Source: Chromatiaceae bacterium
GTDB lineage: Bacteria; Pseudomonadota; Gammaproteobacteria; Chromatiales; Chromatiaceae
Length of the DNA: 42,698 nt
Direction of reading: 5' to 3'
NCBI GenBank assembly: GCA_003562815.1
Contig: PWTO01000281.1
Location: forward strand, 1-42,698
Each line of letters opens with the position of its first letter. The first letter of the stretch is position 1. Below, one piece after another: positions 1 through 29,822 of this stretch. The position numbers were made by a program, and so were the translations under genes. The notes beneath the pieces are model-generated. The model searched no databases and had not been told where the DNA came from. It saw only the letters and a list, made by a program, of their open reading frames with translations.

Positions 1-96
1 AACGGCATCGAGATGGAACGCGACGAGAACGGCGCCCGTGGGATTTTCCTGCGGGCTTTGGTGGATTCGCCCATCCTCATCGAGGGTGCGCGTTAG
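1..96 (+). CDS. 3' end of an unidentified protein (partial)
   Basis: An open frame runs in from the left edge and ends at the TAG at 94-96, giving 31 residues that finish [12 protein letters not shown]. The fragment is too short for me to name a family. It lies 38 bp upstream of terD on the same strand, so it may be an earlier member of the same stress cluster, but that is inference from position only. Confidence 0.5.
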
Positions 97-100
97 CGTA

Positions 101-120
101 TGTTAACGAAACAGAATCAG
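101..120 (+). repeat. 20-bp leader repeat, copy A (before terD)
   Basis: The sequence TGTTAACGAAACAGAATCAG occurs here and again, base for base, at 29803-29822. It contains the small dyad TGTT-N5-AACA. The last bases run into the terD ribosome-binding site (CAGGAG), and the ATG of terD is 14 bases further on. Its function is unknown; a shared operator or shared 5' leader is possible. Confidence 0.75.
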
Positions 121-134
121 GAGAAGCAACCATC

Positions 135-713
135 ATGGCGATTTCGTTGAGTAAGGGCGGTAACGTCAGCCTTTCCAAGGAACAACCGGGCTTGAAGCGC
201 ATCCTGATCGGTCTCGGCTGGGATGCCCGGGCGAGCGACGGGCATGATTTCGACCTCGACGCCTCGGCCTTCATGCTCGGCGCGACGGGCAAGGTGCCGA
301 ACGATCAGGCCTTCATCTTCTACAACAACCTCGTTTCCACCGACGGTTCGGTTGAGCACACCGGCGATAACCTGACCGGCGACGGCGAGGGCGATGACGA
401 GGTGATCAAGGTTACGCTCGATCAGGTCTCTGAGCAGGTGCACTCGGTTGCCATCACCGTCACCATCCATGACGCCGAGGCCCGCCGTCAGAATTTTGGC
501 CAGGTGCGTAATGCCTTCATCCGCATCGTCAACGACGAGACCGGCACCGAGATCGCGCGCTACGACCTGTCCGAGGATTACAGCACCGAGACGGCGATGA
601 TCTTCGGTGAGGTCTACCGCCACGAGACCGAGTGGAAATTCCGCGCCATCGGCCAGGGTTACTCGGGTGGACTGGCGGCCATGTGCAAACAATACGGTGT
701 CAATATCGCCTGA
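135..713 (+). CDS. terD: TerD family stress / tellurium resistance protein
   Basis: This is a 192-residue TerD-domain protein, the usual length for the family. It opens [16 protein letters not shown] and carries the typical core [17 protein letters not shown], then VFRNAFIRI-like and [19 protein letters not shown] segments, ending near [14 protein letters not shown]. TerD proteins are calcium-binding cytoplasmic proteins of the Ter stress response, linked to tellurite, phage and oxidative stress. The acidic residues of the calcium sites (DFDLDAS and the GDGEGDDE stretch near residues 80-86) are present. The start at 135 has a good GGAGA site upstream. It is followed after 13 bp by the first vWA gene, so the five genes 135-5100 look like one operon. 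Confidence 0.95.
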
Positions 714-726
714 TCAGGAGGCTCGC

Positions 727-1365
727 ATGCGCCGCTTACCGGTCTATCTCGTGCTCGATGTGTCGGGGTCCATGCAGGGTGAGCCGATCGAGGCCGTGCG
801 CCAGGGTGTCCAACTGCTCATCAGCACGCTGCGCAAAGATCCCTATGCGTTGGAGACCGCCGCGCTGTCGGTGATTCTGTTCGATGCCAAGGCGCGTCAG
901 GCGGTCCCGCTGACCGAACTCATGGCCTTTCAGGCGCCCAAGATCGAGGCTGGAAGCACCACGTCGCTGGGCGCCGCGCTCGAGCTGACCAAGACCTGCA
1001 TCGAGCGCGAGGTGCAAAAGACCACGGCGGACGCCAAGGGCGACTGGAAACCGCTGGTGTTCATCATGACCGATGGCCACCCCACCGATGACTGGCGCCG
1101 GGGGCTCGACGTCTTTCGCCAGGCCAAGACCGGTCTGGTGATCGCCTGCGGCGCCGGTCCCGACGCCGATACCACGGTCTTGAAAACCATCACCGAGGCC
1201 GTGGTCAGCCTCGATACCGCCGACAGCAGCACCATCGGCGCCTTCTTCAAATGGGTCTCGGCGTCGATCTCGACCTCGTCGAAGAAGGTCGATCTGACCA
1301 AAGCGGATTCCAGTGAGATCAACGAGCTGCCGCCGCCGCCACCGCAGATCAATCTCGTGACCTGA
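727..1365 (+). CDS. terY: TerY-like von Willebrand factor A domain protein 1
   Basis: A 212-residue protein that is almost entirely one vWA domain. The MIDAS metal site is visible: DVSGS near residue 10, the threonine/serine loop GSTTSLG near residue 80, and MTDG near residue 117. The ATG at 727 is chosen because it follows an AGGAG site and the vWA strand begins at once (MRRLPVYLVLDVSGSM); a longer open frame from 607 overlaps terD and is unlikely. The C-terminus ends ELPPPPPQINLVT, a proline-rich tail also found in the next gene. In TerY-P systems the vWA protein is thought to scaffold a kinase and a PP2C phosphatase, both of which follow here. Confidence 0.9.
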   Translation: MRRLPVYLVLDVSGSMQGEPIEAVRQGVQLLISTLRKDPYALETAALSVILFDAKARQAVPLTELMAFQAPKIEAGSTTSLGAALELTKTCIEREVQKTTADAKGDWKPLVFIMTDGHPTDDWRRGLDVFRQAKTGLVIACGAGPDADTTVLKTITEAVVSLDTADSSTIGAFFKWVSASISTSSKKVDLTKADSSEINELPPPPPQINLVT

Positions 1366-1420
1366 GGACTTGGCCACCGGCGAGCACGAGGACAGGGCAA
1401 CAGCACTCGATGGAGGCATC

Positions 1421-2056
1421 GTGAGGCGACTTCCGGTCTATTTGCTGCTCGATACATCCGGCTCCATGCGCGGCGAGCCTATTGAGGCGGTCAACACGGG
1501 CATCCGCGTCATGGTCAGCGCCTTGCGACAAGATCCGCATGCGTTGGAAACCGTGCATGTGAGCCTCATCACCTTCGATCACGCGGCAACCGTAGTGACG
1601 CCCCTGACGGCGCTCGACGAGCTGCAGGTACCGGTCATCGCCACGCCGCAGTCCGGGCCCACGCACCTCGGGCTCGCCCTGCAAACCCTGCGTGGCCGGG
1701 TCCTGGCGGAGGTCAAAAAATCGACCCCGGCGTCGAAGGGCGACTGGGCGCCATACCTGTTCGTGATGACCGATGGCAAGCCGTCCGATCTGCAAGTGTT
1801 CGCAGAGCAGTGTCCGCTGGTGCGAGCGCTTGGCTTTGCCAGCATCATCGGCTGTGTCGCCGGACCCAAGGCGCGCAAGGAGGATCTTGAACCCCTGTGC
1901 GATCACATCGTGACGCTGGATACCCTCGATAGCGCCGCCTTCAGCGGCTTCTTCAAATGGGTGACCTCGACGATCTCGGGCGGCAACAAGACGGTCGGCG
2001 CGGCGGCGTCGGTCAAGCTGCCACCGCCGCCGCCAGAGATTCAGGTTGTCTTCTGA
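1421..2056 (+). CDS. terY: TerY-like von Willebrand factor A domain protein 2
   Basis: A second vWA protein of 211 residues, clearly a paralogue of its upstream neighbour (opening RRLPVYLLLDTSGSMRGEPIEAV against RRLPVYLVLDVSGSMQGEPIEAV). MIDAS elements are DTSGS, the SGPTHLG loop (the position carrying S-T-T-S in the first copy) and VMTDG. The GTG at 1421 is preferred because it follows GGAGG and matches the start of copy 1. The C-terminus KLPPPPPEIQVVF repeats the proline-rich tail. The pair suggests a tandem duplication followed by divergence; whether they form a heteromer or have separate partners cannot be read from sequence. Confidence 0.88.
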   Translation: MRRLPVYLLLDTSGSMRGEPIEAVNTGIRVMVSALRQDPHALETVHVSLITFDHAATVVTPLTALDELQVPVIATPQSGPTHLGLALQTLRGRVLAEVKKSTPASKGDWAPYLFVMTDGKPSDLQVFAEQCPLVRALGFASIIGCVAGPKARKEDLEPLCDHIVTLDTLDSAAFSGFFKWVTSTISGGNKTVGAAASVKLPPPPPEIQVVF

Positions 2057-2078
2057 GCGCGCTGGTGCGAGCACGACG

Positions 2079-3590
2079 ATGACGGATCAAGACAGCGCGC
2101 AGAACGCACTGCCACGACCGGTCGAGCGCGCCTGGACGCAGCTGCTCGAAGCCCTGCGGCAGGCCGGCGTGCCGAGCGCCGAGGAGGGCGCCTATGGCTT
2201 CGGCGGGCTGCCGCCGGAGGTACGCCGGGTGCTGACCTTCATCGATCGGCGCTGGCCAGGCGCTTATGCAGCGAGCGATTCTGCCACCAAGATCGAGGAG
2301 ACCGACATGCCACCTGCTCCCGCCGATCCTCCCATCGTCGCCACCGAGCAACCGGCAGTGGACGCCGCCGAGGTGACGCCCGATGCTGCCGAGGGGATGT
2401 CGATGGCGGTCTCCAAGCAGACCATCTTGCTCAAAAACGCCCGTATCGATCAGCCTTACCAGGAGACGATCGCGCTGGAAGGGGTCGATGAGCTGGAACT
2501 CATCGACGATGCCGACACCGGACTCGCTCTCGACCCTGAGCAGGACGCGGCGATCCTCAAGGGCCTCCCTCGACACAGCGGCGATTTCCTGCTGCGCCTG
2601 CGCGGCTGGCGCGCCGATCGGCCCTGCGAGATCAGCGCGCATCTGGCGGTGATCCCCGATCCCAAATCGCTCTGGGTGTCCAAGGAGAGCGATCGCGAGG
2701 ATCCGTTCTGGAAGCCGGATGCGGTGTTCCAGCGCGTCGAAGGCGAATTACTGTGTATCGGCGCCAGCAAGCGCGGGCGCGCGCACGCTAAGGATGGGCT
2801 GTTTCGAGACGATCACGTCGGGGTCAGTGTCGATGCCGCGAGCGGTTGGCACATCGCCGCCGTCGCCGATGGCGCCGGTAGCGCGAGGTTCTCCCGGCGC
2901 GGCTCGCAGATCGCCGTTGACAGCGTCATCGAGCACTTACCCGCGCGGCTGCAAACGCATGTCAGCCCCCATCTCGACGCCCTGGTCGCGGCCTATCTGA
3001 GTCAGGCGCCCGATGCCGAGGCGAGACTCAAGGGCCAGCTCTATCGGGCACTCGCTGCGGCCGCTTTCGACGCCGCCAAGGCCATCGAGGCGGAAGCGGC
3101 CGCCCATGACCAGACCGCCGCCGCCTTCTCGACGACCCTGGTCGTCGGGGTGGCCCGCAAGCTCGAGGACGGTTGGTTTTTCGCCGCGTTCTCGGTCGGC
3201 GATGGCGGGGCTGCGGTCTTCGATCTGGACGCTGAATCCCTGACCACGCTGAGCCTACCCGACAGCGGTGAGTTCGCCGGTCAGACACGCTTTCTGCACA
3301 AGTCCGAGTTCGTCGATTACGAGGCGGTCGCGAAACGCATCTTTTTCGCGGTGCGGCCCAGCTTCACCGCGATGATCCTGATGACCGATGGCATCACCGA
3401 TGCCAAATTTCCGACCGAGACCCTGTTTGCGCAGCACGCCCAGTGGTTCGCGTTTTGGCGCGATGATCTCGCTCAGGCCGTCGAGTTCTCGCGCGCCAAC
3501 GCCGATCTCCAAGCGCAACTCCTGGCCTGGCTCGATTTCTGGTCGCCGGGCAATCACGACGATCGCACGCTCGCGGTCCTGGTGCCCTAG
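2079..3590 (+). CDS. PP2C-family serine/threonine phosphatase with long N-terminal extension
   Basis: 503 residues from ATG 2079 (a TTG at 2046 overlapping the previous gene is an alternative). Residues about 230-503 form a PP2C domain: the DDHVGV and VADGAGS segments with metal-binding aspartates, SVGDGGAAVF, LMTDGITDAKFP near 434, and the C-terminal NHDDRTLAVLV. Residues about 115-195 (LKNARIDQPYQETI ... TGLALD ... LKGLPRHSGDFLLRL) resemble the putative Ig-like 'He_PIG' fold, and residues 1-75 form a separate helical stretch. It should remove phosphate from targets of the downstream kinase. This is the phosphatase member of a TerY-P triad. The Ig-like call is pattern recognition and needs a profile search. 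Confidence 0.85.
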   Translation: MTDQDSAQNALPRPVERAWTQLLEALRQAGVPSAEEGAYGFGGLPPEVRRVLTFIDRRWPGAYAASDSATKIEETDMPPAPADPPIVATEQPAVDAAEVTPDAAEGMSMAVSKQTILLKNARIDQPYQETIALEGVDELELIDDADTGLALDPEQDAAILKGLPRHSGDFLLRLRGWRADRPCEISAHLAVIPDPKSLWVSKESDREDPFWKPDAVFQRVEGELLCIGASKRGRAHAKDGLFRDDHVGVSVDAASGWHIAAVADGAGSARFSRRGSQIAVDSVIEHLPARLQTHVSPHLDALVAAYLSQAPDAEARLKGQLYRALAAAAFDAAKAIEAEAAAHDQTAAAFSTTLVVGVARKLEDGWFFAAFSVGDGGAAVFDLDAESLTTLSLPDSGEFAGQTRFLHKSEFVDYEAVAKRIFFAVRPSFTAMILMTDGITDAKFPTETLFAQHAQWFAFWRDDLAQAVEFSRANADLQAQLLAWLDFWSPGNHDDRTLAVLVP

Positions 3591-3603
3591 AGGAAAGAAC
3601 GCC

Positions 3604-5100
3604 ATGGCGGTCATCAGGCTCACGACGACCGACGGCCAGCCGGTTGAATACGAAGACGAACTCATCGCCCAGGGCGGCATGAAGGATGTCTATTTCAGCC
3701 CCGACCGCGCCTATGTCGTCGCCTTCTTCCGCGACCCGCTCGACGCTCAGGGCCAGGCGCGCTTGCGAGCGATCGTCGGTCCCTATCGCCAGGGCATCTT
3801 CGAGAACGAGGGCGGGGCCTATTGGCGCGACCTGTTTTGCTGGCCGACGGCGGTGGTCGAGCAGGACGGTCGCACCGGTGTCGTCGTGCCGGTGTATCAG
3901 CCGACGTTTTTCTTCGCCCACGGCTCGGTCAATGATGACATGCTCGGTATCAAGGGCAAGGAAAAGGAAGGCAAGTGGTTCGCGAGCGCGTCCAACCGCG
4001 CCAAATACCTCCCTGCGGAGGAGAAAGGGAACTGGCTGACGCACTTGCAGATCTGCCTGATGATCAGTCGCGCGATTCGCCGGCTGCATGCCGCCGGACT
4101 CGCCCATTCCGATTTATCCTACAAAAACGTGCTGGTCGATCCGGTCACCGGCAGGGCCTGCGTGATCGACATCGATGGTCTGGTGGTGCCGGGCAAGTTC
4201 CCGCCGGATGTGGTTGGCACGCCGGACTTCATCGCCCCCGAGGTGGTCGCGACCCAGCATCTCGAGAAGACCGATCCCGCGCGCACGTTGCCCTCGACCC
4301 TGACCGACCGCCATGCGCTGGCGGTGTTGATCTATATGTACCTGTTCTACCGGCATCCGCTGCGCGGCGGCAAAGTTCACGACATGGACCCGGGCCAGGA
4401 CGAAACGCTCGCAATGGGCGAGCGAGCGCTCTTCGTCGAACATCCGTCCGATGCCAGCAACCGCGTCAGGGCCGAGCGCCTGACCCCGGCCCAGCGGCCT
4501 TGGGGCGATCCGGCCAGCATGCCGTACACCATCGCCGGCCCCCTGTTGACGGACTTGTTTCGCAAGGCCTTCATCGATGGCTTGCATGCGCCCTTGGAGC
4601 GACCCACCCCGTCGGAGTGGGAGAGCGCCTTGGTGCGCACCATCGACATGATTCAGCCCTGCTCGAACCAGTGTGAAATGGGTTGGTACGTCTTCGACAA
4701 TACGACCAAGCCGAGGTGTCCGTATTGCGGCACGCCGTATCGCGGCCAGTTGCCGGTCTTGAATCTCTATTCCAGCCGTCATAGTGGCGCTTATCAGCCG
4801 GATAATCACCGGGTGATGGTCTGGGATGGTCAATCGCTTTTCCCCTGGCATGTCACGCGCACGCTCTTTCCCAATGAGCATCTCAGTGCCGCCGAACGCA
4901 AGCGCGTCGGCTATTTTCAACGCCATCAGGGCGACTGGTATCTGGTCAATGAGGCCATGCCACAGATGTACGATGTCGGCGCGAAACGGGATGTGCCCAT
5001 CGGCGGCTATGTGAAGCTGCTCGATGGCACGCAGCTCTTGCTCTCGCGCGAGGAGGGCGGCCGACTCGTGCAGGTGCAATTGGTGCTCGGCGAGGGCTAG
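3604..5100 (+). CDS. TerY-P type protein kinase with zinc ribbon
   Basis: 498 residues. ATG 3604 follows AGGAAAG by a few bases and starts 13 bp after the phosphatase stop. Kinase motifs: glycine-rich GGMKDVYF near residue 25, catalytic loop HSDLSYKNVLVD near 168-179, DIDG in place of DFG near 189, and APEV near 211. The usual beta-3 VAxK lysine is not evident (the segment reads YVVAFFRD); a lysine sits in the glycine loop instead. After the kinase come paired cysteines CSNQC and CPYC (about 353-375), a probable zinc ribbon, then a beta-rich C-terminal domain that could be FHA-like. It is the kinase partner of the vWA and PP2C genes upstream. Substrates are unknown. Confidence 0.87.
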   Translation: MAVIRLTTTDGQPVEYEDELIAQGGMKDVYFSPDRAYVVAFFRDPLDAQGQARLRAIVGPYRQGIFENEGGAYWRDLFCWPTAVVEQDGRTGVVVPVYQPTFFFAHGSVNDDMLGIKGKEKEGKWFASASNRAKYLPAEEKGNWLTHLQICLMISRAIRRLHAAGLAHSDLSYKNVLVDPVTGRACVIDIDGLVVPGKFPPDVVGTPDFIAPEVVATQHLEKTDPARTLPSTLTDRHALAVLIYMYLFYRHPLRGGKVHDMDPGQDETLAMGERALFVEHPSDASNRVRAERLTPAQRPWGDPASMPYTIAGPLLTDLFRKAFIDGLHAPLERPTPSEWESALVRTIDMIQPCSNQCEMGWYVFDNTTKPRCPYCGTPYRGQLPVLNLYSSRHSGAYQPDNHRVMVWDGQSLFPWHVTRTLFPNEHLSAAERKRVGYFQRHQGDWYLVNEAMPQMYDVGAKRDVPIGGYVKLLDGTQLLLSREEGGRLVQVQLVLGEG

Positions 5101-5176
5101 AGCGAGGTCCAGCACGGCTGCAGGGGGGCGAGGTCTCCAGCGGGTTCGCAGAGACCAGCGCCAGCGCGCGCCGGCA

Positions 5177-5923
5177 TCAGAGCGTGCGCGCCAGAGTCCA
5201 GATATCAACCTGCTCACAGCCGCCGCGCTGCAGCACCTGCGTCAACTCCGAGACCGTGGCGCCGGTGGTGACCACATCGTCAAGGATCGCCAGATGCCGG
5301 GGCAATGGCCCGATGACCTCGAAGGCATCGCGCAGGTTGATCAGACGCAACCGTTGGTTTAGCGTCGTCTGCGCCTGAGTCGCTCGGGTGCGCCGGCAGC
5401 AGCGGTGGTTGACGGGAATGTCCAGTCGGCGTTCGACCACCCGCGCCAACTCCAACGCCTGATTGTAACCGCGCGTTCGCAAGCGGCGCGGATGTAGGGG
5501 CACCGGCACGATCGCCGCCGGCGGCTGCCAGTCGGGGCGCTCGCTTGCGGCGCTCAGCGCATCGGCTAATAGCTCGCCGAGCAAGCGAATCACATTCATT
5601 TTCGAGCGGAATTTGATGTCGATGACCAGCGAGGACAGGGGCTCTTCGTAGCGAAAGGCGGCCGTGCAGCACGCGAAGGGCGGTGGCGCTTGCTGACAGC
5701 GACCACAGAGGCGGCCCATGCCCGTGCCCGAGATGGAGAACGGCTGTGCACAGCGCGCGCAATGCGCGCCAATCAGCGGCAGATCGTCCGCGCAGCCCGC
5801 GCAGAGGTCGCGTCCGGCCTCGCCGGGCGCGCCGCAGAGCACGCAAGTAGGCGGATAGAGCAGCGCCAAGGCCCGCTCTGCGAAGCCGTGCAAGGGGGAT
5901 CGTGTGCGACGGGCGATAGGCAT
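5177..5923 (-). CDS. comF: ComF family phosphoribosyltransferase-like protein
   Basis: 248 residues, standard length for ComF/GntX. The N-terminus carries a zinc-binding set of cysteine pairs (CVLCG, CAGC, CARC, CGRC within residues 27-80). The C-terminal half has the type I phosphoribosyltransferase core: VPVPLHPRRLRTRGYNQA, then TQAQTTLNQ, then the PRPP loop ILDDVVTTGAT near residue 215. ComF is needed for DNA uptake and transformation in competent bacteria, but in many bacteria its role is undefined. It converges with the kinase gene; in 5101-5176 a weak inverted repeat (GGTCTC/GAGACC) could act as a terminator. Confidence 0.93.
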   Translation of the reverse strand: MPIARRTRSPLHGFAERALALLYPPTCVLCGAPGEAGRDLCAGCADDLPLIGAHCARCAQPFSISGTGMGRLCGRCQQAPPPFACCTAAFRYEEPLSSLVIDIKFRSKMNVIRLLGELLADALSAASERPDWQPPAAIVPVPLHPRRLRTRGYNQALELARVVERRLDIPVNHRCCRRTRATQAQTTLNQRLRLINLRDAFEVIGPLPRHLAILDDVVTTGATVSELTQVLQRGGCEQVDIWTLARTL

Positions 5924-6101
5924 GGCCTATGACTACGCGTCGGGCATATAAATCGCTAACTGCTTGTTTTTCCATACCCGCCAATATCCGTGCCTGATGG
6001 TTATTGCCAATAATGCCGCAGAAAAAGCGTTCGACTTTTGCGTATTTCGCGATCTTCTGCTACGTTTACTCATACCATTCACATTAAAAAAGGCTTTAGT
6101 C

Positions 6102-6323
6102 ATGGATACGTCCGTTAATAATGTCGTCAACGCATCGCTGTACATGAATCAAGCGCAGACCGCGCAACAGGCGCAGATGCAAATCCTTCGGGAGGCGCTA
6201 GATAATCAGAAAGATCAGGTCGCTGCTTTGATGGACTCCTCGATGGCAGGCTCGGGTACAGACTCGAATGCTAACCTGGCATCCGAGGGTAACCTTGGCA
6301 CCCAAGTCAATACCTACGCCTGA
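6102..6323 (+). CDS. YjfB-like putative motility protein
   Basis: A 73-residue protein starting at ATG 6102 (MDTSVNNVV). It has the pattern of the YjfB putative motility family: a short helical protein with an alternating Q/A-rich helix (MNQAQTAQQAQMQILREALDNQ) and a C-terminus ending GTQVNTYA, close to the family's G-x-x-V-x-x-x-A ending. Function is not established in the family. It sits alone between comF and bioB, and the 178 bp before it (5924-6101) is much AT-richer than the surroundings, holding its promoter but no motif I can assign with confidence. Confidence 0.75.
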   Translation: MDTSVNNVVNASLYMNQAQTAQQAQMQILREALDNQKDQVAALMDSSMAGSGTDSNANLASEGNLGTQVNTYA

Positions 6324-6351
6324 CGTCATCCTTCGAGTCGGCTCGATCTCC

Positions 6352-6382
6352 TGTCAACCGCAAGTGCGGTTTTTGGTTGACA
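6352..6382 (+). promoter_or_regulatory. Candidate BirA (biotin repressor) operator upstream of bioB
   Basis: TGTCAACC at 6352-6359 and GGTTGACA at 6375-6382 form a perfect dyad separated by 15 bases. The known BirA site is TTGTAAACC-N14-16-GGTTTACAA; this differs at one symmetric position per half (C/G for A/T) and at the outermost base. It lies directly upstream of bioB, and its right half contains the TTGACA -35 box, which fits repression by promoter occlusion. The birA gene is not in the window. Confidence 0.65.
6356..6374 (+). terminator. Rho-independent terminator of the yjfB-like gene
   Basis: A 6-bp stem AACCGC/GCGGTT with loop AAGT is followed by T residues (6372-6374), 32 bp after the stop of the yjfB-like gene. 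The hairpin is nested inside a larger dyad that looks like a BirA operator for bioB. Confidence 0.6.
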
Positions 6383-6404
6383 GGGCCGAGCCGATGGTTA
6401 GGCT
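6377..6404 (+). promoter_or_regulatory. Candidate sigma70 promoter of the bio operon
   Basis: A consensus TTGACA -35 box (6377-6382) is followed after 16 bases by TAGGCT (6399-6404), a weak -10. Transcription would begin near 6411, which favours the bioB start at 6470 over the one at 6413. Confidence 0.45.
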
Positions 6405-6469
6405 AGCAGTTTATGCACGGCGGCCTGCCCCTGCGCCGCGACTCCAAAACCTGCTGCCGGATCTGCGTT

Positions 6470-7546
6470 ATGTCGTCCTCTCTACCGTGTGCCCCCGTCT
6501 CGCCTGAAGACACAGCGCCGATCCGTCACGACTGGTCGCTCGAGGAGGCGCGCGGGTGCCTGGAACAGCCGTTCAACGATCTGCTGTTCGCGGCCCAATC
6601 GGCGCATCGCGCGCACTTCGATCCGAACCGCATCCAAGTCAGCACCTTGCTCAGCATCAAGACCGGCGCCTGTCCAGAAGACTGCGGCTACTGCGCGCAG
6701 AGCGCCAAACACGACACCGGCCTCGAACGCGAGCGCCTGCTGCCGGTCGACGAGGTGCTGCAGGCCGCGCGCGCCGCGCGTGAGCAAGGCGCGACCCGCT
6801 TCTGCATGGGCGCGGCCTGGCGCAACCCGACTGACAACAACCTAGAGCAGGTCATCGAGATGGTGCGCGGGGTCAAGGCGCTGGGCCTGGAGACCTGCGT
6901 CACGCTTGGGATGCTAGAGCAGGAGCAGGCCCAACGCCTGCGCGCGGCGGGGCTCGACTACTACAACCATAATCTGGACACCTCGCCCGAGTTCTACGGC
7001 CAGGTGATCAGCACCCGCACCTATCAAGACCGCTTGCAGACGCTCGACTATGTGCGTGAAGCCGGCCTCAAGACCTGCAGCGGCGGCATCCTCGGCATGG
7101 GAGAATCGCGTCGCGACCGCGCCGCGCTGCTGTGCCAGCTCGCCAACCTGCCAGCGCATCCAGAATCGGTGCCGATCAACCTGCTGGTGCAGGTCGAAGG
7201 CACGCCCTTATTCGGCACTGAGGCGCTCGATCCGTTCGAGCTGGTGCGCACCATCGCCACCGCCCGCCTCATGATGCCGGCCTCCTATGTGCGCCTGTCA
7301 GCCGGGCGCGCCAGCCTCTCCGACGAGCTGCAGGCGCTGTGTTTCGCCGCCGGCGCCAACTCAGTGTTCCATGGCGATCGCCTGCTCACCACCGACAACG
7401 CCGAGGCCGCGCGCGATCGGCAACTCTTTGCCCGTCTCGGTTTGCAGCCGGAAGTCGCCGAGTTCGAGGGACGCGATCGCCCCGGCGCCTGTCACAAATC
7501 CATCGATCGCCAGACCTCGGCGAGGCCATCTGCAGCGGGCGAATGA
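6470..7546 (+). CDS. bioB: Biotin synthase BioB
   Basis: A radical-SAM enzyme that inserts sulfur into dethiobiotin, the last step of biotin synthesis. From ATG 6470 it is 358 residues (E. coli 346). The [4Fe-4S] motif is [13 protein letters not shown] with CX3CX2C cysteines near residues 68, 72 and 75. Other family segments are [31 protein letters not shown] and the C-terminal YVRLSAGR and [12 protein letters not shown] 6413 is an alternative start, but a promoter at 6377-6404 would leave it no leader. The stop overlaps the bioF start (ATGA at 7543-7546), so the two are translationally coupled. It is the first gene of bioBFHCD. Confidence 0.96.
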
Positions 7547-8772
7547 TCGATCTAGCCTCGGAACTGACCGCGCTACGTCAGGCCGGCCTGTACCGCCAAC
7601 GCCGCCTGCTCAGCGGGCCCCAGGGGGTGCGCCCGCGCATCGATGGCCGCGAGCGGCTCGCCTTCTGCAGCAACGACTATCTTGGCCTTGCCGCACATCC
7701 GGCGGTGATCGAGGCTCTGCGCGACGGTGCCGTGCGCGACGGCGTCGGCAGCGGTGCCTCGCATCTGATCACCGGCCATCACCAGGCCCACGCAGCGCTC
7801 GAAGACGCGCTCGCCGCCTTCCTCGGCCGCGAGCGCGTGCTGCTGTTCTCGACCGGCTACATGGCCAACCTCGGCGTCATCCAGGCCCTCTGCGGGCGTG
7901 GCGATCAACTCCTCGCCGACCGTCTCAACCACGCCTCGCTGTTGGATGGCGCCCAACTCAGCCAAGCGCGGCTGCGGCGCTATCCGCATGCCGATACCGA
8001 CCGACTCAAGACCATGCTCGGCAGTACCCATCGCAGCGCAGGTCAGAGCGCAGGCGGCCACCTGATCGTCAGCGACGGCGTGTTCAGCATGGACGGCGAC
8101 CTCGCGCCGATACCAGCGCTCGCCACCATCGCCAACGCAACCGGTGCCACGCTCATGATCGACGACGCCCACGGCATCGGCATCCTCGGCGCCCAGGGGC
8201 GTGGCAGCCTCGAACATCTCGGTTTCGATGGGGCAGATGCCCAAACCGCCGTCCCGGTCCTGATCGGCACTCTCGGTAAAGCCCTCGGCACCGTTGGCGC
8301 CTTCGTCGCCGGCAGCGCCGAGCTGATCGAGTACCTGATTCAACGCGCACGCAGCTACCTCTACACCACTGCACTGCCGCCGGCGCTCGCCCGCGCCAGC
8401 CTCGCGGCGCTGCGGATCGCCGCGCACGAGCACGAGCGGCGCGACCAGCTCCACCGCCTGATCGCCCGCTTTCGCGCTGGCGCTGAAACCCTGGGACTGA
8501 CCTTGGCCGACTCGCCGACGCCAATCCAACCGCTGATGGCCGGCGATATCGACACCGCCCTGCGCTGGAGCCAATTCCTCGAAGACAACGGCATCCTGGT
8601 CACCGCGATCCGCCCACCGACCGTGCCCCAAGGCACCGCCCGCCTGCGCATCACCTTCTCGGCTGCCCACCAAACCGGCGATGTCGATCGCCTGCTTGAG
8701 ACCCTGGCGAGGCTGCCAAAGCGGCGCTCCAAGAAGCAGCAGCAACAGCCAGCAGCGCTACTGGATCACTAA
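7543..8772 (+). CDS. bioF: 8-amino-7-oxononanoate synthase BioF
   Basis: A PLP enzyme joining pimeloyl-ACP (or CoA) and L-alanine to make KAPA. It has 409 residues, about 25 longer than E. coli BioF, mostly at the C-terminus (an R/K/Q-rich tail). Motifs: [33 protein letters not shown] (the histidine/aspartate pair near the cofactor), and the PLP lysine in [16 protein letters not shown] 7543 overlaps the bioB stop by one base pair step. The next gene, bioH, starts 31 bp after its stop. Confidence 0.96.
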
Positions 8773-8803
8773 AGCACGCAAGCACTCACTGTTCCCATCG
8801 ACG

Positions 8804-9649
8804 ATGCACAACAACCGACCCACTCTCGTCCTGCTCCACGGCTGGGGCATGAACAACGGTGTCTGGGAGGCACTCCCAGCCGCGTTCAGCGAGCGCTTCC
8901 ACCTGCATCCCATCGAGCTTCCCGGCCACGGCAACGCACCCTTTCAACCACACTGGCGAGATCTGCCGGACTGGGCCGACGCCGTGCTCGCCCAAGCCCC
9001 CGAGCAGGCCATCTGGCTGGGCTGGTCGCTCGGCGCTCTGGTCGCGCTGCAGGCTGCGCTCCAGACCCGCACCCCAGGTCGTCCCCTCGGCCCCGGCCAG
9101 CAGGCTCCGGCGCTGGACGTCGCGGCTCGGGACGTCGCACCACGCCGCCGCGCGCCCTCGCGCATCAGCGCCCTGATCCTGGTCACCGCCAACCCGCGCT
9201 TCGTCCAATCCGTGGATTGGCGCGCCGCCATGCCTGCCAGCACCTTCGACGGCTTCCACACCGCGCTCCTCGACGATCCCGCCGCGACGCTCGAGCGCTT
9301 CCTCTCGCTCCAGGTGCGCGGCAGCCAGGACGCCCGTCAGACCCTGCGTCGCCTGCGCGCTGGCATCGCCGAGCGCCCCCAGCCGCAACCCGAGGCACTA
9401 CTCGCCGGCCTTGACCTGCTGCGCGAGGACGACCTGCGCGCGCGCCTCGCCGACATCCAACAACCCGCGCTCTGGCTGTTCGGCGAGCGCGATACCCTGG
9501 TGCCAGCCGCCGTCGCCGAGCGGGTTGCGCTGTTGATGCCCCAGGCCCAATGTCGAACCATCGCCGGTGCCGCCCATGCGCCCTTGCTCTCGCACGGCAA
9601 CGAGGCCGCTGAGCTCATCACCGCCTTTCTCGACGAGACCACTCCATGA
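8804..9649 (+). CDS. bioH: Pimeloyl-ACP methyl ester esterase BioH
   Basis: An alpha/beta hydrolase that cleaves pimeloyl-ACP methyl ester, ending the BioC-BioH route to pimelate. 281 residues against about 256 in E. coli. The oxyanion segment LLHGWGMNNGVW, nucleophile GWSLGAL, acid LFGERDTLVP and histidine GAAHAPLLSH are all present. The extra length is an insertion of roughly 30 residues, rich in Pro, Arg and Ala, directly after the nucleophile helix (9067-9166), before SALILVTANPRFV. ATG 8804 is chosen because the hydrolase strand starts just after; the longer frame from 8681 runs into bioF. The stop overlaps bioC (ATGA). Confidence 0.93.
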   Translation: MHNNRPTLVLLHGWGMNNGVWEALPAAFSERFHLHPIELPGHGNAPFQPHWRDLPDWADAVLAQAPEQAIWLGWSLGALVALQAALQTRTPGRPLGPGQQAPALDVAARDVAPRRRAPSRISALILVTANPRFVQSVDWRAAMPASTFDGFHTALLDDPAATLERFLSLQVRGSQDARQTLRRLRAGIAERPQPQPEALLAGLDLLREDDLRARLADIQQPALWLFGERDTLVPAAVAERVALLMPQAQCRTIAGAAHAPLLSHGNEAAELITAFLDETTP

Positions 9650-10527
9650 ACCCGATCGACAAACGCGCCACCCGCCGCGCCTTCGAGCGCGCCGCGCCCA
9701 GTTATGACGAAGCCGCCGTGCTGCAGCGCGAGATCGGCACGCGCATGCTCGAGCGGCTCGACTATGTGCGCCTGCGCCCGGCGACCATCCTCGAACTCGG
9801 CTGCGGCACCGGGCAGGGCATCGACGCTCTGGCCAAGCGCTGGCGCCAATCCCGGATCATCGCCCTCGACCTCGCCGAGGCGATGCTCCAGCGCGCCCGG
9901 CGCCGGGGCACCTGGCTGAACCGCCCGCGCCCGCTCTGCGCCGACTTGGAGGCCTTGCCATTGGCTAACGACTCGGTCGATCTGGTGATCTCCAACGCCA
10001 CCCTGCAATGGGCTGGCGATCTCGCGCGCGCCTTCGCCGAGCTGCGGCGCGTGTTGCGCCCCGAAGGTTTGCTGATGTTCACCACCTTCGGCCCGGACAC
10101 CCTGATCGAGCTGCGCCGCGCGTGGGCTACCGCCGATGGCGGTGCCCATGCGCATGTCAGCCCGTTCCTGGATATGCACGATATCGGCGATGCCCTGGTC
10201 CGGGCCGGTTTCGCCGATCCGGTGATCGATGCCGAGCGCATCGCCATGACCTATGCCAGCGTGCGCGACCTGATGCGCGACCTCAAGGCCATCGGCGGGC
10301 GCAACGCGCTGCACGAGCGCCCGCGCGCGCTGACCGGTCGTGCGACCTTAGCGGCGATGGAAGCGGCCTATGAGCAGGCACGGCGCGACGGGCGCCTGCC
10401 CTCGACCTGGGAGGTCGTCTATGGCCAGGCCTGGATGCCGGCCGGGGCCAAGGCACCCGCGCAGCAACAGACCGCCGACGGGGTCGCGATCCCGCTCACG
10501 GCCATCCCGCGCCGGGCCGCGCGGTGA
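9646..10527 (+). CDS. bioC: Malonyl-ACP O-methyltransferase BioC
   Basis: A SAM-dependent methyltransferase that caps malonyl-ACP as a methyl ester so fatty-acid synthesis can build pimelate. 293 residues. It opens with the BioC signature of a basic N-terminus then FERAAPSYDEAAVLQREIG; SAM motif I is LELGCGTGQG near residue 50, followed by LVISNATLQW and VLRPEGLLMFTTFGPDTL. The C-terminus has the family's STWEVVYGQAWMP segment. ATG overlaps the bioH stop by the ATGA arrangement, which suggests matched production of the enzyme that adds the methyl cap and the one that removes it. Confidence 0.95.
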   Translation: MNPIDKRATRRAFERAAPSYDEAAVLQREIGTRMLERLDYVRLRPATILELGCGTGQGIDALAKRWRQSRIIALDLAEAMLQRARRRGTWLNRPRPLCADLEALPLANDSVDLVISNATLQWAGDLARAFAELRRVLRPEGLLMFTTFGPDTLIELRRAWATADGGAHAHVSPFLDMHDIGDALVRAGFADPVIDAERIAMTYASVRDLMRDLKAIGGRNALHERPRALTGRATLAAMEAAYEQARRDGRLPSTWEVVYGQAWMPAGAKAPAQQQTADGVAIPLTAIPRRAAR

Positions 10528-10536
10528 GTGGGTTAA

Positions 10537-13014
<2,478 letters not shown>

Positions 13015-13021
<7 letters not shown>

Positions 13022-13896
13022 GGCGTATCGGAGTGGGTATGGCCGCCCCAGCCGAGCTTGGCGCGCAGGATGCGGTAGTGGTTATGATCGTGCGGATGCA
13101 GCAGGCGGATGCGGCGTGGGCTGCGCTCGATGCGAATGGTGGCGCCGGCCTCGAGGGGTAAGTCGACCTGGCCGTCGCAGGTCAGGCGCACCTGCTCCGG
13201 CTCCAGGTTGCAGATGCGGATCTCGATGCGGCTACCGCCCGGCACCACCAGCGGCCGATTGCTCAGCGTGTGCGGACAGATCGGCACCAGCAGCAGGGTA
13301 TCGAGCCGCGGATGCAGCAGCGGGCCACCGCCGGAGAGGGCATAGGCGGTGGAGCCGGTCGGGGTGGCGACGATCATGCCGTCGGAGCGCTGGGCATTGA
13401 TGAACTGCCCGTCGATGTAGGTCTCGAATTCGATCATGCGCACCGAATTCCATTTGTGGATCACCACATCGTTGAGCGCGCGCTTGGGTGCGGCTTGATC
13501 GCCCATGCGCGCGTCGAGCAGGATGCGGGTGTCGGCCTCGTAGGCGCCGCCGAGGATCTGCTCCAGGCGCGCCTCGATCTCATCGGGCAGGATATCGACC
13601 AGGAAGCCGAGGCGACCGAGGTTGATGCCGACCAGCGCGACCTCGTGCTCGGCCAGCACCCTGGCGGCGTGCAGGAAGGTGCCGTCGCCGCCGACCACCA
13701 GCACCAAGTCGCAGCGCTCACCGATGCGCTCGATGCTGACGCCATCGTTGCGTTGCAGCAGGGCCGCCGTGGCCTGCTCGAAGGAGGTCCGCACCCCGTG
13801 CGCGCCGAGGTAGCTGACGGCGCGCGCGACCGTGGTCGCCACACGCGCGTCGTCATGTTGTTTGGCAATGATACCGATATGCTGGAACCAGGCCAT
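13015..13896 (-). CDS. nadK: NAD kinase
   Basis: Phosphorylates NAD to NADP. 293 residues, close to E. coli NadK (292). Motifs: GGDGTFLHAAR (the GGDGT catalytic aspartate), GINLGRLGFL, NDVVIHK, then ATPTGSTAYALSGGGP, and RLTCDGQ near the C-terminus. An AGGAG lies upstream of the ATG at 13896. It overlaps the start of recN by 7 bp, a nadK-recN order known in many gammaproteobacteria. The gene is divergent from hrcA; the 229 bp between them carries the hrcA promoter and CIRCE. Confidence 0.96.
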
Positions 13897-14007
13897 CGAT
13901 GGCGCGCGACTCCTAGGAGGCGAGGGTGAGACGAAGCATTGGGCGGGTAAGTAACGTTAGCACGCGGCCGCGAGCGCGCCAATCATCGCTCGTTCGCCGG
14001 GCTGCGT

Positions 14008-14037
14008 CTTGACATCATCCGGCGCGCCCCTTAGATT
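14008..14037 (+). promoter_or_regulatory. hrcA promoter, overlapping sigma32-like and sigma70-like elements
   Basis: CTTGACA at 14008-14014 and CCCCTTAG at 14027-14034 (12-bp spacer) resemble a sigma32 promoter (CTTGAAA ... CCCCATNT). The same bases read as sigma70: TTGACA 14009-14014, 17-bp spacer, TAGATT 14032-14037. Transcription would start at the left edge of the CIRCE element. Confidence 0.65.
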
Positions 14038-14044
14038 GAACGTA

Positions 14045-14071
14045 TTAGCACTCGTTCGATAAGAGTGCTAA
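14045..14071 (+). promoter_or_regulatory. CIRCE element (HrcA operator)
   Basis: A perfect consensus CIRCE: TTAGCACTC (14045-14053), nine spacer bases, GAGTGCTAA (14063-14071). It is the binding site for HrcA, encoded 54 bp downstream, so hrcA and the linked chaperone genes should be repressed at normal temperature, with autoregulation. Confidence 0.97.
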
Positions 14072-14125
14072 CAACCGATTGATAGCCCGAGAGCCCAGAT
14101 TCCATGGGGTTCGTTCAGCCGCTAA

Positions 14126-15208
14126 GTGAGTGACAATCTCGTGTCGATGGACTCTAGAGCCAGTGGTCGTTTTGCCGAAGGCCAGGTCAGCGAGCGTGCG
14201 CTCCACTTTCTGAAGGTGCTCGTCGAACGCCACATCCGCGATGGCCAGCCGGTCGGGTCGCGCACCTTGGCGCGCGATACCGGGCTCGATCTGAGCCCGG
14301 CGACGGTGCGTAACGTGATGTCGGATCTCGAGGATCTGGGGCTGGTGTCGTCGCCACACACCTCGGCAGGGCGAGTGCCGACCGCGTCCGGTTATCGACT
14401 CTTCATCGATAGCCTGCTCAAGGTCGCGCCGCTCACCGAGGCGGATGTATCGAGGTTGCGCGATCAGTTCGCGCGCACCACCGATACCGTGAGCCTGATT
14501 CAAACCGCTTCGCGGGCGCTCTCTGGCGTGACCCATCTGGCCGGGCTGGTGATGGTGCCACGCCACGAGCGCGAGGTGTTTCGGCAAATCGAATTCGTCC
14601 CCCTCTCGGGGCGGCGGGTGTTGGCGATTCTGGTCACCGGCGATGGCGAGGTGCATAACCGGATCCTCGAGACCGAGCAGCCGGTGTCGGCCTCGCAGCT
14701 CGAGCAGGCGTCGAATTATCTGACCCAGATGTTCAACGGCCATGAGATGCGCGAGGTGCGCCAGCAGTTGATGGCCGATCTCAAGCGCACCCATGCGCAC
14801 ATGGATGAGCTGATGATGCGCGCGGTGACGATGGCGCAGCGCGTCATCGAGGCCGCCGAGCACAAGGACGATGTGATGATCGCGGGCCAGACCAATCTGA
14901 TGGAGTTCACCGAACTCTCCAGCATGGATCGGCTCAAGGCGTTGTTCGATGCCTTCACCGAAAAGCGCCAGATTCTGGACCTGCTCGATCGCTGCATTGA
15001 GGCCGAGGGCGTGCAGATCTTCATCGGCGAGGAATCGGGCTATGCATTGCTCGACGATTGCAGTGTTGTGACCGCCACCTACCGCGTCGAGGATCAGGTG
15101 CTCGGGGTGCTCGGGGTGATCGGCCCGACGCGGATGAATTACCAGCAGGTGATTCCGGTGGTCGATGTCACGGCGAAGCTGCTCGCGGCCGCCCTGCGCG
15201 GGCGTTGA
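14126..15208 (+). CDS. hrcA: Heat-inducible transcription repressor HrcA
   Basis: Winged-helix repressor of class I heat-shock genes, acting at CIRCE and folded with help from GroE. 360 residues from GTG 14126 (an ATG at 14147 is an alternative). The N-terminal segment SERALHFLKVLVERHIRDGQPVGSRTL and SPATVRNVMSDLEDLGLVSSPHTSAGRVPTASGYR is the family's DNA-binding signature; IFIGEES and VLGVIGPTRMNY near the C-terminus are also characteristic. The operator lies just upstream. grpE follows 89 bp downstream with no promoter I can recognise between, so read-through is likely. Confidence 0.97.
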   Translation: MSDNLVSMDSRASGRFAEGQVSERALHFLKVLVERHIRDGQPVGSRTLARDTGLDLSPATVRNVMSDLEDLGLVSSPHTSAGRVPTASGYRLFIDSLLKVAPLTEADVSRLRDQFARTTDTVSLIQTASRALSGVTHLAGLVMVPRHEREVFRQIEFVPLSGRRVLAILVTGDGEVHNRILETEQPVSASQLEQASNYLTQMFNGHEMREVRQQLMADLKRTHAHMDELMMRAVTMAQRVIEAAEHKDDVMIAGQTNLMEFTELSSMDRLKALFDAFTEKRQILDLLDRCIEAEGVQIFIGEESGYALLDDCSVVTATYRVEDQVLGVLGVIGPTRMNYQQVIPVVDVTAKLLAAALRGR

Positions 15209-15297
15209 TTCGCGACAACTCATATTCAACGCTAGGGTCACGGGCGTGCTTGCGGCGCAGTCGCCGCCCGCCGAGTGGCCCGGGAAGAGGTTTAGAG

Positions 15298-15939
15298 ATG
15301 ACGAAGGAGCAAGAGGAAGCGCGTCGCCCGATCGAGGGCATCGATCGGGCGCTGCACGACGAAGACACGGCAGAACCGGCGTTAGCGGCAGCAGACGCCG
15401 AGGAGGAGGCGCTTGAGCCTGATGCGTCCCAGCCGGATGTCGCCCCACCGGACGTTGAGCATGCCGACCCGGTCGAGCTGGCCATGCAGTTGGAAGCAGC
15501 GCGCGCACAGGCCGACGAGGCCAACAACCAGTTGCTGCGTCTGCGCGCCGAGATGGAGAACATGTCGCGGCGCCAAGCCAAGGAACTCGAGAACGCACAC
15601 AAGTTTGCGCTCGATGGATTCGTCAAGGAATTGCTACAGGTGCGCGATAGCCTCGAACTCGGCCAGGCCGCCGCCGAGGCCCCGGATGCCGATGTCGCCA
15701 AGCTGCGTGAAGGCACCGGGCTGACGCTGAAATTGCTCAGCGATGTGATGGCCAAATTTGGCGTCGCGCGCATCGAGCCCGAAGGTGAGCCCTTCAACCC
15801 GGACTATCACCAAGCGATGTCGATGCAGCCACGCTCCGATGTGCCACCGAATACCGTGGTGACCGTCGTGCAGAGCGGTTACCTGTTGAATGGCCGTTTG
15901 GTGCGTCCGGCGTTGGTGATGGTGTCGCAAGCGGCTTGA
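15298..15939 (+). CDS. grpE: Nucleotide exchange factor GrpE
   Basis: Releases ADP from DnaK during the chaperone cycle. 213 residues from ATG 15298, with a GAAGAGG site upstream. The N-terminal 55 residues are acidic and low-complexity (Ala, Glu, Asp, Pro), followed by the long dimerisation helix (residues about 60-110: NNQLLRLRAEMENMSRRQAKE) and the beta-wing domain with the family signature FNPDYHQAMS ... VVTVVQSGYLLNGRLVRPALV. It lies between hrcA and dnaK. Confidence 0.97.
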   Translation: MTKEQEEARRPIEGIDRALHDEDTAEPALAAADAEEEALEPDASQPDVAPPDVEHADPVELAMQLEAARAQADEANNQLLRLRAEMENMSRRQAKELENAHKFALDGFVKELLQVRDSLELGQAAAEAPDADVAKLREGTGLTLKLLSDVMAKFGVARIEPEGEPFNPDYHQAMSMQPRSDVPPNTVVTVVQSGYLLNGRLVRPALVMVSQAA

Positions 15940-16002
15940 TTGCGCGAGATCAGCCAGCGTCTTGAAAGCCGCCGCTGGACCTGCGGCAAGGCCGTGAGAA
16001 TG

Positions 16003-16031
16003 CTTGAGAATCACAGGGTTTTGCCCCAAAT
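16003..16031 (+). promoter_or_regulatory. Candidate sigma32 promoter of dnaK
   Basis: CTTGAGA at 16003-16009 and CCCCAAAT at 16024-16031, with a 14-bp spacer, closely match the heat-shock sigma factor consensus CTTGAAA ... CCCCATNT. It lies 40 bp before dnaK, giving dnaK-dnaJ a heat-shock promoter of its own in addition to read-through from the CIRCE-controlled promoter. No second CIRCE is seen here. Confidence 0.65.
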
Positions 16032-16070
16032 CCTGCGCCAACCAAATTGAACTAGATTCGGAGATAAGCT

Positions 16071-18011
16071 ATGGGAAAGATCATCGGTATCGATCTCGGT
16101 ACGACCAATTCTTGTGTCGCCGTCATGGAGGGCGACAAACCCAAGGTCATCGAAAACGCCGAGGGCGATCGCACCACCCCGAGTATCGTCGCCTTCACCA
16201 GTGACGATGAAGTCTTGGTGGGCCAATCGGCCAAGCGCCAGGCGGTCACCAATCCGGCCAACACCCTGTTCGCGATCAAGCGCCTGATCGGACGGCGTTA
16301 CGAGGATCAGGTGGTCGGCAAGGACAAGGACATGGTGCCGTACAAGATCGTCAAGGCCGACAATGGCGACGCCTGGGTCGAGGCCAACGGCAAGAAGATG
16401 GCGCCGCCGGAGATCTCGGCCAAGATCCTGCAGAAGATGAAGAAGACCGCCGAGGATTACCTGGGCGAGAAGGTCACCGAGGCGGTGATCACGGTGCCGG
16501 CCTACTTCAACGACTCGCAGCGCCAGGCGACCAAGGATGCCGGGCGCATCGCCGGTCTCGATGTCAAGCGCATCATCAACGAGCCGACGGCCGCCTCGCT
16601 CGCCTACGGCATGGACAAAAAGCGCGGCGATCAAAAGCTCGCGGTCTATGACCTCGGCGGCGGCACCTTCGACATCTCGATCATCGAGATCGCCGAGATC
16701 GAGGGCGAACATCAGTTCGAGGTGCTCTCGACCAATGGCGATACCTTCCTCGGTGGCGAGGACTTCGACCTGCGCATCATCGATTTCCTCGCCGAGACCT
16801 TCAAGAAGGAGCAGGGCGTCGATCTGCACAATGATCCGCTCGCGCTGCAGCGCCTGAAAGAGGCCGCCGAAAAGGCCAAGATCGAGCTGTCTTCGAGTCA
16901 GCAGACCGATATCAATCTGCCTTACATCACCGCCGATCAGACCGGACCGAAGCATCTCAACGTCAAGCTGACGCGCTCCAAGCTCGAATCGCTGGTCGAG
17001 GATCTGGTCGATCGCACCATCGGGCCCTGCCGCACGGCGCTGAAGGATGCCGGCATCGGTGCCGGTGACATCAACGAGGTGATCCTGGTCGGCGGTCAGA
17101 CGCGCATGCCCAAGGTGCAAGCCAAGGTCGAGGAGTTCTTCGGCAAGGCGCCGCGCAAGGACGTCAACCCGGACGAGGCCGTGGCGGTCGGCGCGGCGAT
17201 CCAGGGCGGTGTGCTGGGCGGTGGGGTCAAGGATGTGCTGCTGCTCGATGTGACCCCGCTGTCGCTCGGCATCGAAACGCTGGGCGGCGTCATGACCAAG
17301 CTGATCGAGAAGAACACCACCATCCCGACCTCGGCCAATCAGGTGTTCTCGACCGCCGACGACCATCAGACCGCCGTCACCGTGCATGTGCTGCAGGGCG
17401 AGCGCGAGCGGGCCGTCGATAACAAGTCGCTCGGGCGCTTCGATCTCTCGGACATCCCACCGGCGCCGCGCGGCGTGCCGCAGATCGAGGTCAAGTTCGA
17501 CATCAACGCCAATGGCATCTTGAATGTGCACGCCAAGGACAAGGCCACTGGCAAGGAGCAGTCGATCGTGATCAAGGCCAGCTCGGGGCTCTCGGATGAG
17601 GAGGTCGAGCGCATGGTCAAGGATGCCGAGGCGCATGCCGAGGACGATCGCAAGTTCCACGAGCTGGTCGGCGCGCGCAATCAGGCCGACTCGATCATCC
17701 ACGCCACGCGCAAGTCGATGGAACAGCTCGGCGACGAGAAGCTCGAGGAGGGCGAAAAGGAACGCATCGAGAGCACCATCGGCGACCTCGAGGAGGCCAT
17801 GAAAGGCGAGGACAAGGACAAGATCGAGGCGCTGAGCAAGGCCCTCGGCGAGGCCTCCGGTAAGATGGCCGAGCGGCTCTATGCCCAAGATCAGGGCGGC
17901 GAGGCCGGCGCGGGTCCGGCGGGTGAGGCCGGTGCCGGCGAGGGCGCGAAAGCGCAGACCGACGATGTGGTCGATGCCGAATTCGAAGAGGTCAAGGACG
18001 ATAAGCGCTAA
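16071..18011 (+). CDS. dnaK: Chaperone DnaK (Hsp70)
   Basis: 646 residues, typical length. The ATPase domain (about 1-385) shows [16 protein letters not shown] at the start, [45 protein letters not shown] and [11 protein letters not shown]. The substrate-binding domain includes [14 protein letters not shown] and [16 protein letters not shown]. The lid ends in a Gly/Ala/Glu-rich linker and the conserved [14 protein letters not shown] tail, which binds co-chaperones. The start follows CGGAGATAAGCT. It works with GrpE and DnaJ encoded on either side. Confidence 0.98.
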
Positions 18012-18052
18012 GCTGCGCGCCATGCCCCGAGCGCCTGCGCTGCGGCCAGGCG

Positions 18053-18082
18053 ACGGCGCGTGGGCATGGGCCCACGCGCCGT
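18053..18082 (+). other. Strong hairpin between dnaK and dnaJ
   Basis: A perfect 12-bp inverted repeat, ACGGCGCGTGGG and CCCACGCGCCGT, around a 6-base loop, followed at once by a second small hairpin (GATCG-TTTT-CGATC, 18083-18096). It has only a weak T-run, so it may be an attenuator or an RNA stability/processing signal that keeps dnaJ transcript levels below dnaK. Confidence 0.55.
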
Positions 18083-18145
18083 GATCGTTTTCGATCGCCC
18101 CCGCGATCTGGATTTCTGTTTTCCAACGACTGACCGATTACGCGA

Positions 18146-19291
18146 ATGTCCCAGCGCGATTACTACGACGTCCTCGGCCTGAGCCGAAATGCCAGCGAGC
18201 AGGACATCAAGAAGGCGTTTCGGCGTCTCGCCATGAAATACCATCCGGATCGCAACCCGGATGATGCCGAAGCGCTTGCCAAGTTTAAGGAGGCCAAGGA
18301 GGCGCACGACGTCCTCGCCGATGCCCGCAAACGCAGCGCCTACGATCAGTTCGGCCATGCCGGCGTCAGTGGCCAAGGCGGTTTCGGAGGGGGCGGGGGT
18401 CCGAGTGACTTCGCCGGCGGTGGCTTCTCCGATATCTTCGGCGATGTCTTCGGCGACATCTTCGGCGGCCGTGGTGGCGGTGGTGGCCGGCGTACCGCGC
18501 GCGGTGCCGATCTGCGCTACGACCTGTCGCTGACCTTGGAGGAGGCGGTCACCGGCAAGGATGTCAAGATCCGCATCCCGACCACGGTGGAATGCCATCA
18601 CTGCAGCGGCAGCGGCGCCAAGCCCGGCACCAGCCCGAAGGACTGTCCCACCTGTCATGGTATGGGCCAGGTGCGCATGCAGCAGGGCTTCTTCTCGATC
18701 CAGCAGACCTGTCCCGAGTGTCGCGGGACCGGCAAGGTGGTCGAGGAGCCCTGTCGGCATTGCCGTGGCGTCGGGCGTTTGAAAGAGGAGAAGACCCTCT
18801 CGGTCAAGGTCCCGGCGGGCGTCGATACCGGGGATCGTATCCGCCTCGCCGGCGAGGGCGAGCCGAGCGAGCATGGCGGCATGGCGGGCGATCTCTACGT
18901 GCAGGTCGTGGTCCAGGAACATCCGATCTTCAAGCGCGAGGACAGCCACCTGTTCTGCGAGGTGCCGATCAGCGTCGTCACCGCCGCGCTCGGTGGCGAG
19001 ATCGAGGTGCCGACGCTCAATGGCAAGGTCGTGCTCAAGGTGCCGGCCGGAACGCAGACCGGTAAGCTGTTTCGCCTGCGCGGCAAGGGCGTGAAGCCGG
19101 TGCGTGGTGGCCCGGTCGGCGATCTACTCTGTCGCGTGATCGTCGAGATCCCGGTGAATCTGACCGAGCGCCAGAAGGAACTCCTGCGCGAATTCGAGGA
19201 GAGCGTCAGCGCTGGCGGCAAGCACCACAGCCCGCAGTCGAGTTCCTGGCTCGACGGCGTCAAGCACTTTTTCGAGAAGATGGGGCTCTAG
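18146..19291 (+). CDS. dnaJ: Chaperone DnaJ (Hsp40)
   Basis: Type I DnaJ of 381 residues. The J domain (1-70) has YHPDRNPDD with the HPD motif that stimulates DnaK. A glycine/phenylalanine-rich linker ([10 protein letters not shown] ... [18 protein letters not shown]) follows. Four zinc-binding CXXCXGXG repeats are complete: [24 protein letters not shown] and CRHCRGVG (about 150-215). The C-terminal substrate-binding domains contain [20 protein letters not shown]. It ends 15 bp before dapB. Confidence 0.98.
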
Positions 19292-20122
<831 letters not shown>

Positions 20123-29808: not shown

Positions 29809-29822
29809 CGAAACAGAATCAG
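29803..29822 (+). repeat. 20-bp leader repeat, copy B (before the PAS kinase)
   Basis: TGTTAACGAAACAGAATCAG, identical to 101-120. It overlaps the cobL stop and abuts the ATG of the PAS histidine kinase at 29823. One mismatch further upstream two more bases agree (GT), so the similarity covers 22 of 23 positions. Confidence 0.75.

Follow-up and report, generated by a model that had tools for sequence, protein, structure and literature searches.

The interval between a yjfB-like gene and bioB in this Chromatiaceae contig raises the question of whether one short sequence can bind a repressor, provide the promoter which that repressor controls and also end the transcript arriving from upstream, as proposed in a sequence-only reading of the window (the whole stretch of 42,698 nucleotides that was analyzed). 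We hold with high confidence that the 35-bp dyad in this interval is a BirA operator laid over the bio promoter, accompanied by a yjfB neighbor inserted in this lineage, a hairpin that may or may not terminate transcription, and an outer repeat that probably arose by accident. The features under discussion are as follows.

5177..5923, minus strand: comF-like gene, divergent from bioB (DZR_2 domain)
6102..6323, plus strand: yjfB-like gene (PF14070; Pfam), upstream of and co-directional with bioB
6338-6345 and 6387-6394 (span 6338..6394), no strand: outer inverted repeat with arms TCGGCTCG and CGAGCCGA, probably accidental
6350..6384, no strand: predicted BirA operator, CCTGTCAACC-N15-GGTTGACAGG (perfect arms, conservation, published consensus)
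6356..6371, plus strand: terminator-like hairpin AACCGC-AAGT-GCGGTT, then TTTGG, a possible yjfB terminator (consensus scan)
6377..6382, plus strand: TTGACA, -35 box of the candidate bio promoter, within the right operator half (TTGAC in 72/74 operators)
6399..6404, plus strand: likely -10 box TAGGCT, 16 nt after the -35 box (offset conservation; identical in the nearest relative, G066)
6470..7546, plus strand: bioB, first gene of bioB-F-H-C-D (Pfam Radical_SAM and BATS)

The names bioB, bioF, bioH, bioC and bioD are those we take to apply to the operon, judging from Pfam domains, gene order and general knowledge. The bioB ATG at 6470 is common to G066, whose bioB is 90% identical; the best named bioB match is that of Lamprobacter modestohalophilus (87% identity), and the upstream sequence of one further genus genome (G097, locus L159) equals the Lamprobacter modestohalophilus record L008 in the stretch compared. 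These matches suggest that the window comes from a purple sulfur bacterium related closely to Lamprobacter.

A predicted BirA operator before bioB

The biotin regulon of E. coli has bioO as its BirA operator. At 6350-6384, upstream of bioB, the window carries a dyad whose arms (6350-6359 and 6375-6384) are perfectly complementary and flank a 15-nt gap; the arms had been noticed before, yet at 10 bp each they are longer than the 8 bp then given. The dyad agrees with TTGTnAACC-type inverted half-sites at 14 of 16 scored positions with an N15 spacer, which bears out the earlier remark that it comes close to the BirA consensus, and such sites recur in the family far above shuffled sequence (see below). 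The consensus itself reads TTGTAAACC-[N14/15]-GGTTTACAA, and close variants exist, according to an excerpt of PMC545781. Within the genome the exact pattern is a single copy. Allowing three mismatches adds one match, on contig C85, whose right half is poor; since three turn up in the reversed control, matches at this level are attributable to chance. A search for a second copy of 6325-6412 returned none, other matches spanning at most 19 bases. A second BirA-like site in the window (29802-29835, score 13, TTGTTAACG-N16-AGATAACAA) likewise has a poor right half and is probably a chance match.

Conservation was assessed in a family sample of 96 genomes, bioB being found in 89. The operator survey comprised 93 upstream regions, 88 from this sample plus 5 from further genus members; G062 was left out because its contig begins at bioB, and a second bioB match in G038 was not used. 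Loci were oriented by tblastn and scored at 16 positions with spacers of 14-16 nt, a score of at least 13/16 counting as a site. Conservation before biotin biosynthesis genes, as expected of a BirA operator, was found: such a site lies upstream of bioB in 74 of the 93 genomes, compared with 9 of 3750 dinucleotide shuffles (75 of the 93 regions, 50 shuffles each). The spacer is N15 in 68 of these operators, N16 in 5 and N14 in 1, and all 8 genus genomes have an N15 operator at bioB with scores of 13-15. A looser, uncontrolled scan of 80 named bioB loci, excluded from the operator counts, picked up comparable sites in several purple sulfur bacteria as well as in several Pseudoxanthomonas and Lysobacter; in many other loci the sites were poor. 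The conservation pattern makes it very likely that 6350-6384 is the BirA operator before bioB-F-H-C-D.

The candidate bio promoter, BirA and the extent of the regulon

The claim that the right operator half doubles as a -35 box stood up well. TTGACA occupies 6377-6382, and across the 74 operators the right half reads TTGAC in 72 and TTGACA in 66. The G of the right half is kept in 72, whereas its counterpart in the left half varies (A in 35, T in 20, C in 19), so the promoter appears to hold one half only; by this pattern the protein would tolerate variation in the left half-site while the promoter fixes the right. A TAnnnT motif follows 16-18 nt past the -35 box in 63/74 operators, against an average of 1/74 for five other offset sets. 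In the window, the candidate sigma-70-type promoter (TTGACA, 16 nt, TAGGCT) has a weak -10 box that matches only 3/6 consensus positions; the consensus promoter scan, which required at least 4/6, did not call this promoter. As judged from the aligned operators, nesting of the predicted operator with the -35 box is real and general in this family sample. Elsewhere in the window, a promoter-like TTGACA-N17-TAGATT (14009-14037) matches at 10/12 positions, promoter-like matches there being overall at chance level.

The checks suggested along with the operator claim included a BirA with an N-terminal helix-turn-helix (HTH) and a similar dyad before bioA. The first turned out positive: the genome encodes an HTH-bearing BirA on contig C265, with HTH_11, BPL_LplA_LipB and BPL_C all above cut-off. 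In the other genomes, a BirA match beginning before query residue 20 was taken as a sign of the HTH. Of the genomes with such early-starting matches, 60 of 74 have the operator; of those with later-starting matches, 2 have it and 5 lack it. Operators are thus associated with full-length BirA matches (Fisher p = 0.007). The two exceptions that combine an operator with a later match (G023, G017) have one poor half-site each. Twelve operator-bearing genomes fall outside this comparison, 7 without a match at E <= 1e-10 and 5 absent from the search. Counting against the operator reading are the 14 genomes in which the BirA match is complete at its N-terminus but no site reaches a score of 13.

The second check came out negative, an outcome that had been named beforehand as one that would refute the claim. 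bioA lies elsewhere in the genome, on contig C182, and no operator was found before it (best upstream score 11) or before birA (best upstream score 9), both values being at the level of shuffled regions, which mostly score 9-11. The strict pattern TGTnAAYY-N14-16-RRTTnACA occurs once each in 6/8 genus genomes, always at bioB (control, 1), and the remaining 2/8 have a weaker site at bioB. Since the strict pattern is found only at bioB in the genus, the missing bioA dyad does not refute the operator reading, which stands; going by these scans, the regulon appears to consist of one site in the genus. In locus L005 (900-1480), bioA is separated from the remaining bio genes and follows what by eye looks like nadA, and that stretch contains no BirA-like site.

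The spacer hairpin, the yjfB neighbor and the outer arms

The terminator-like stem-loop that had been placed inside the operator spacer is present at 6356-6371, with one correction: its left arm takes up the AACC of the left half-site, and the hairpin therefore overlaps the operator instead of lying wholly in the spacer. It has a 6-bp stem with 4 G-C pairs (-7.6 kcal/mol) and a run of five T, two of them within the stem, broken by GG. Of the 74 operators only 1, that of the window, is overlapped by a terminator-like hairpin. The window also stands apart in its gene neighborhood. A comF homologue lies on the strand opposite bioB in 37/58 loci, the window included, and the comF-like gene is probably the ancestral neighbor of bioB; in the window the yjfB-like gene sits between the two (6031-6324), and yjfB adjoins bioB in this 1 locus of the 58 checked (some of the 58 come from the same genome or offer little sequence upstream; the 661-base loci are not among them). 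In 6/7 other genus genomes yjfB and bioB are on separate contigs, and the yjfB upstream region is by eye partly conserved in the genus. In G066, yjfB is flanked on one side by sequence corresponding to window positions 28576-29797, some 22 kb distant, and on the other by sequence that matches other contigs; on account of these split matches the region seems to be rearranged.

This coincidence of hairpin and neighbor admits two explanations. The hairpin could be a genuine terminator, selected after the yjfB insertion, so that the 35-bp element would end yjfB, start bio and bind BirA; we place this slightly below an even chance. It draws support from the fact that the sole hairpin-bearing operator of 74 comes from the genome in which yjfB adjoins bioB, and the consensus scan found no other terminator-like site in 5900-6700. 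Appearance of the hairpin where a co-directional gene was inserted is suggestive, yet it is a single event. Alternatively, the hairpin could be a coincidence, with yjfB transcripts running into bioB or ending otherwise, for instance by Rho, an explanation whose chances we regard as evenly balanced. Terminator-like matches are at chance level (1 found versus 0.6 expected in the local scan; 10 versus 8.3 in window 1-20000). Neither conservation (1/74) nor a local excess of such matches, by which an intrinsic terminator might be recognized, was found; this agrees with coincidence and weakens the terminator explanation. What coincidence accounts for poorly, besides the concurrence with the yjfB insertion, is the rarity of the hairpin within the fixed operator frame. 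Random spacers placed between the window arms gave such a hairpin in 63/20000 cases, and a stem of at least 6 bp with at least 4 G-C pairs in 6/20000; real spacers placed there gave it in 2/74, the window's own included. The terminator explanation is weakened further by the short, weak stem and interrupted T-run, by the full operator hairpin (-16.6 kcal/mol) that would compete in the RNA, and by the nearest relative, which has much of the same spacer, containing GAGTGCGG, yet no hairpin. Taken together, the hairpin, which none of the other genomes compared shares, may or may not be functional, and the chances that it weakly terminates yjfB transcripts are about even. A bolder proposal, according to which the spacer evolved after the insertion into a working terminator, giving three roles in 35 bp, while bound BirA might adjust how much yjfB transcription reads through into bioB, strikes us as rather unlikely. 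No published nesting of terminator and operator appeared among the titles of the matches listed, in a limited search that is no proof of absence.

The spacer also invites a different reading. The core of the Haemophilus-type DNA uptake sequence is AAGTGCGGT, which occurs twice in the window (6362-6370 and 27418-27426), above the window's shuffles. Genome-wide, however, 13 copies versus 17 for the reversed control show no excess, and the uptake-sequence reading is rejected.

The outer inverted repeat had been thought to extend the dyad, a claim that did not survive comparison. Within 25-nt flanks, 8-bp outer arms occur in 2/74 operators (those of the window and of G015, a member of its genus) and arms of at least 6 bp in 14/74; the arms are absent in the nearest relative, and the repeat is rejected as part of the operator. 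Its right arm resembles the promoter spacers of some relatives (L158), and its left arm by eye lies near the junction of yjfB flank and operator, for which reason we consider the outer repeat probably an accident of that junction. The nested repeat as a whole (6338-6394) might act as an RNA structure, for example a bioB attenuator, and its strong fold (-34.9 kcal/mol, z -4.6) would be compatible with such a role. However, the minus strand also folds (-34.0 kcal/mol, z -6.1), as inverted repeats do, and the outer arms are not conserved. The whole repeat precedes the inferred start site and would be absent from bio mRNA, though present in yjfB read-through RNA, on which ground the attenuator is rejected; any RNA-structural role is highly improbable.

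Proposed mechanism and comparison with known systems

The predicted operator can be fitted to the known BirA system, in which holo-BirA dimers act on the operator (excerpts of PMC2964542 and PMC4016012). With ample biotin, BirA loaded with biotinyl-AMP would dimerize on the operator and cover the -35 box TTGACA in its right half-site, switching bioBFHCD off; when biotin is short, RNA polymerase would start near 6411. Overlap of the predicted operator with the promoter is shown by conservation; that BirA binds and represses here, and where transcription starts, is carried over by analogy from the known system. In this lineage, yjfB would have come between comF and the operator, pointing to bioB, and the operator spacer now also forms a short hairpin sequence followed by a run of T. 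We regard the whole as very likely an ordinary BirA operator with an unproven local oddity, the type of switch being shared with many related bacteria. BirA repressors and their regulons have been stated for gamma- and delta-proteobacteria (excerpt of PMC5343134), and the present analysis extends the sequence-predicted BirA regulon across the bacterium's family. It also indicates an operator in which the promoter constrains one half to TTGACA as the other half varies. If the hairpin does terminate, the locus would be a compact case of three transcription signals that arose after a gene insertion.

Compared with intrinsic (Rho-independent) terminators, the window hairpin is alike in coming after a gene and leading into a T-run, but differs in its short stem, interrupted T-run and lack of conservation. 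Likeness to BirA operators (E. coli bioO; the consensus in the excerpt of PMC545781) extends to the half-sites, their spacing, the place before bioB and an HTH-bearing BirA. The delta-proteobacterial Desulfuromonas BirA site tabulated in PMC545781, aTGTcAACC-[N14]-GGTTgACAg, as given in the excerpt, is also close: both halves are nearly letter-identical, including the C and G as in the window, with a spacer of 15 here and 14 there. Set against BirA operators, the site in the window differs in having a right half that reads TTGACA and merges with the -35 box, in being the single site of its genome and in the extra hairpin in the spacer.
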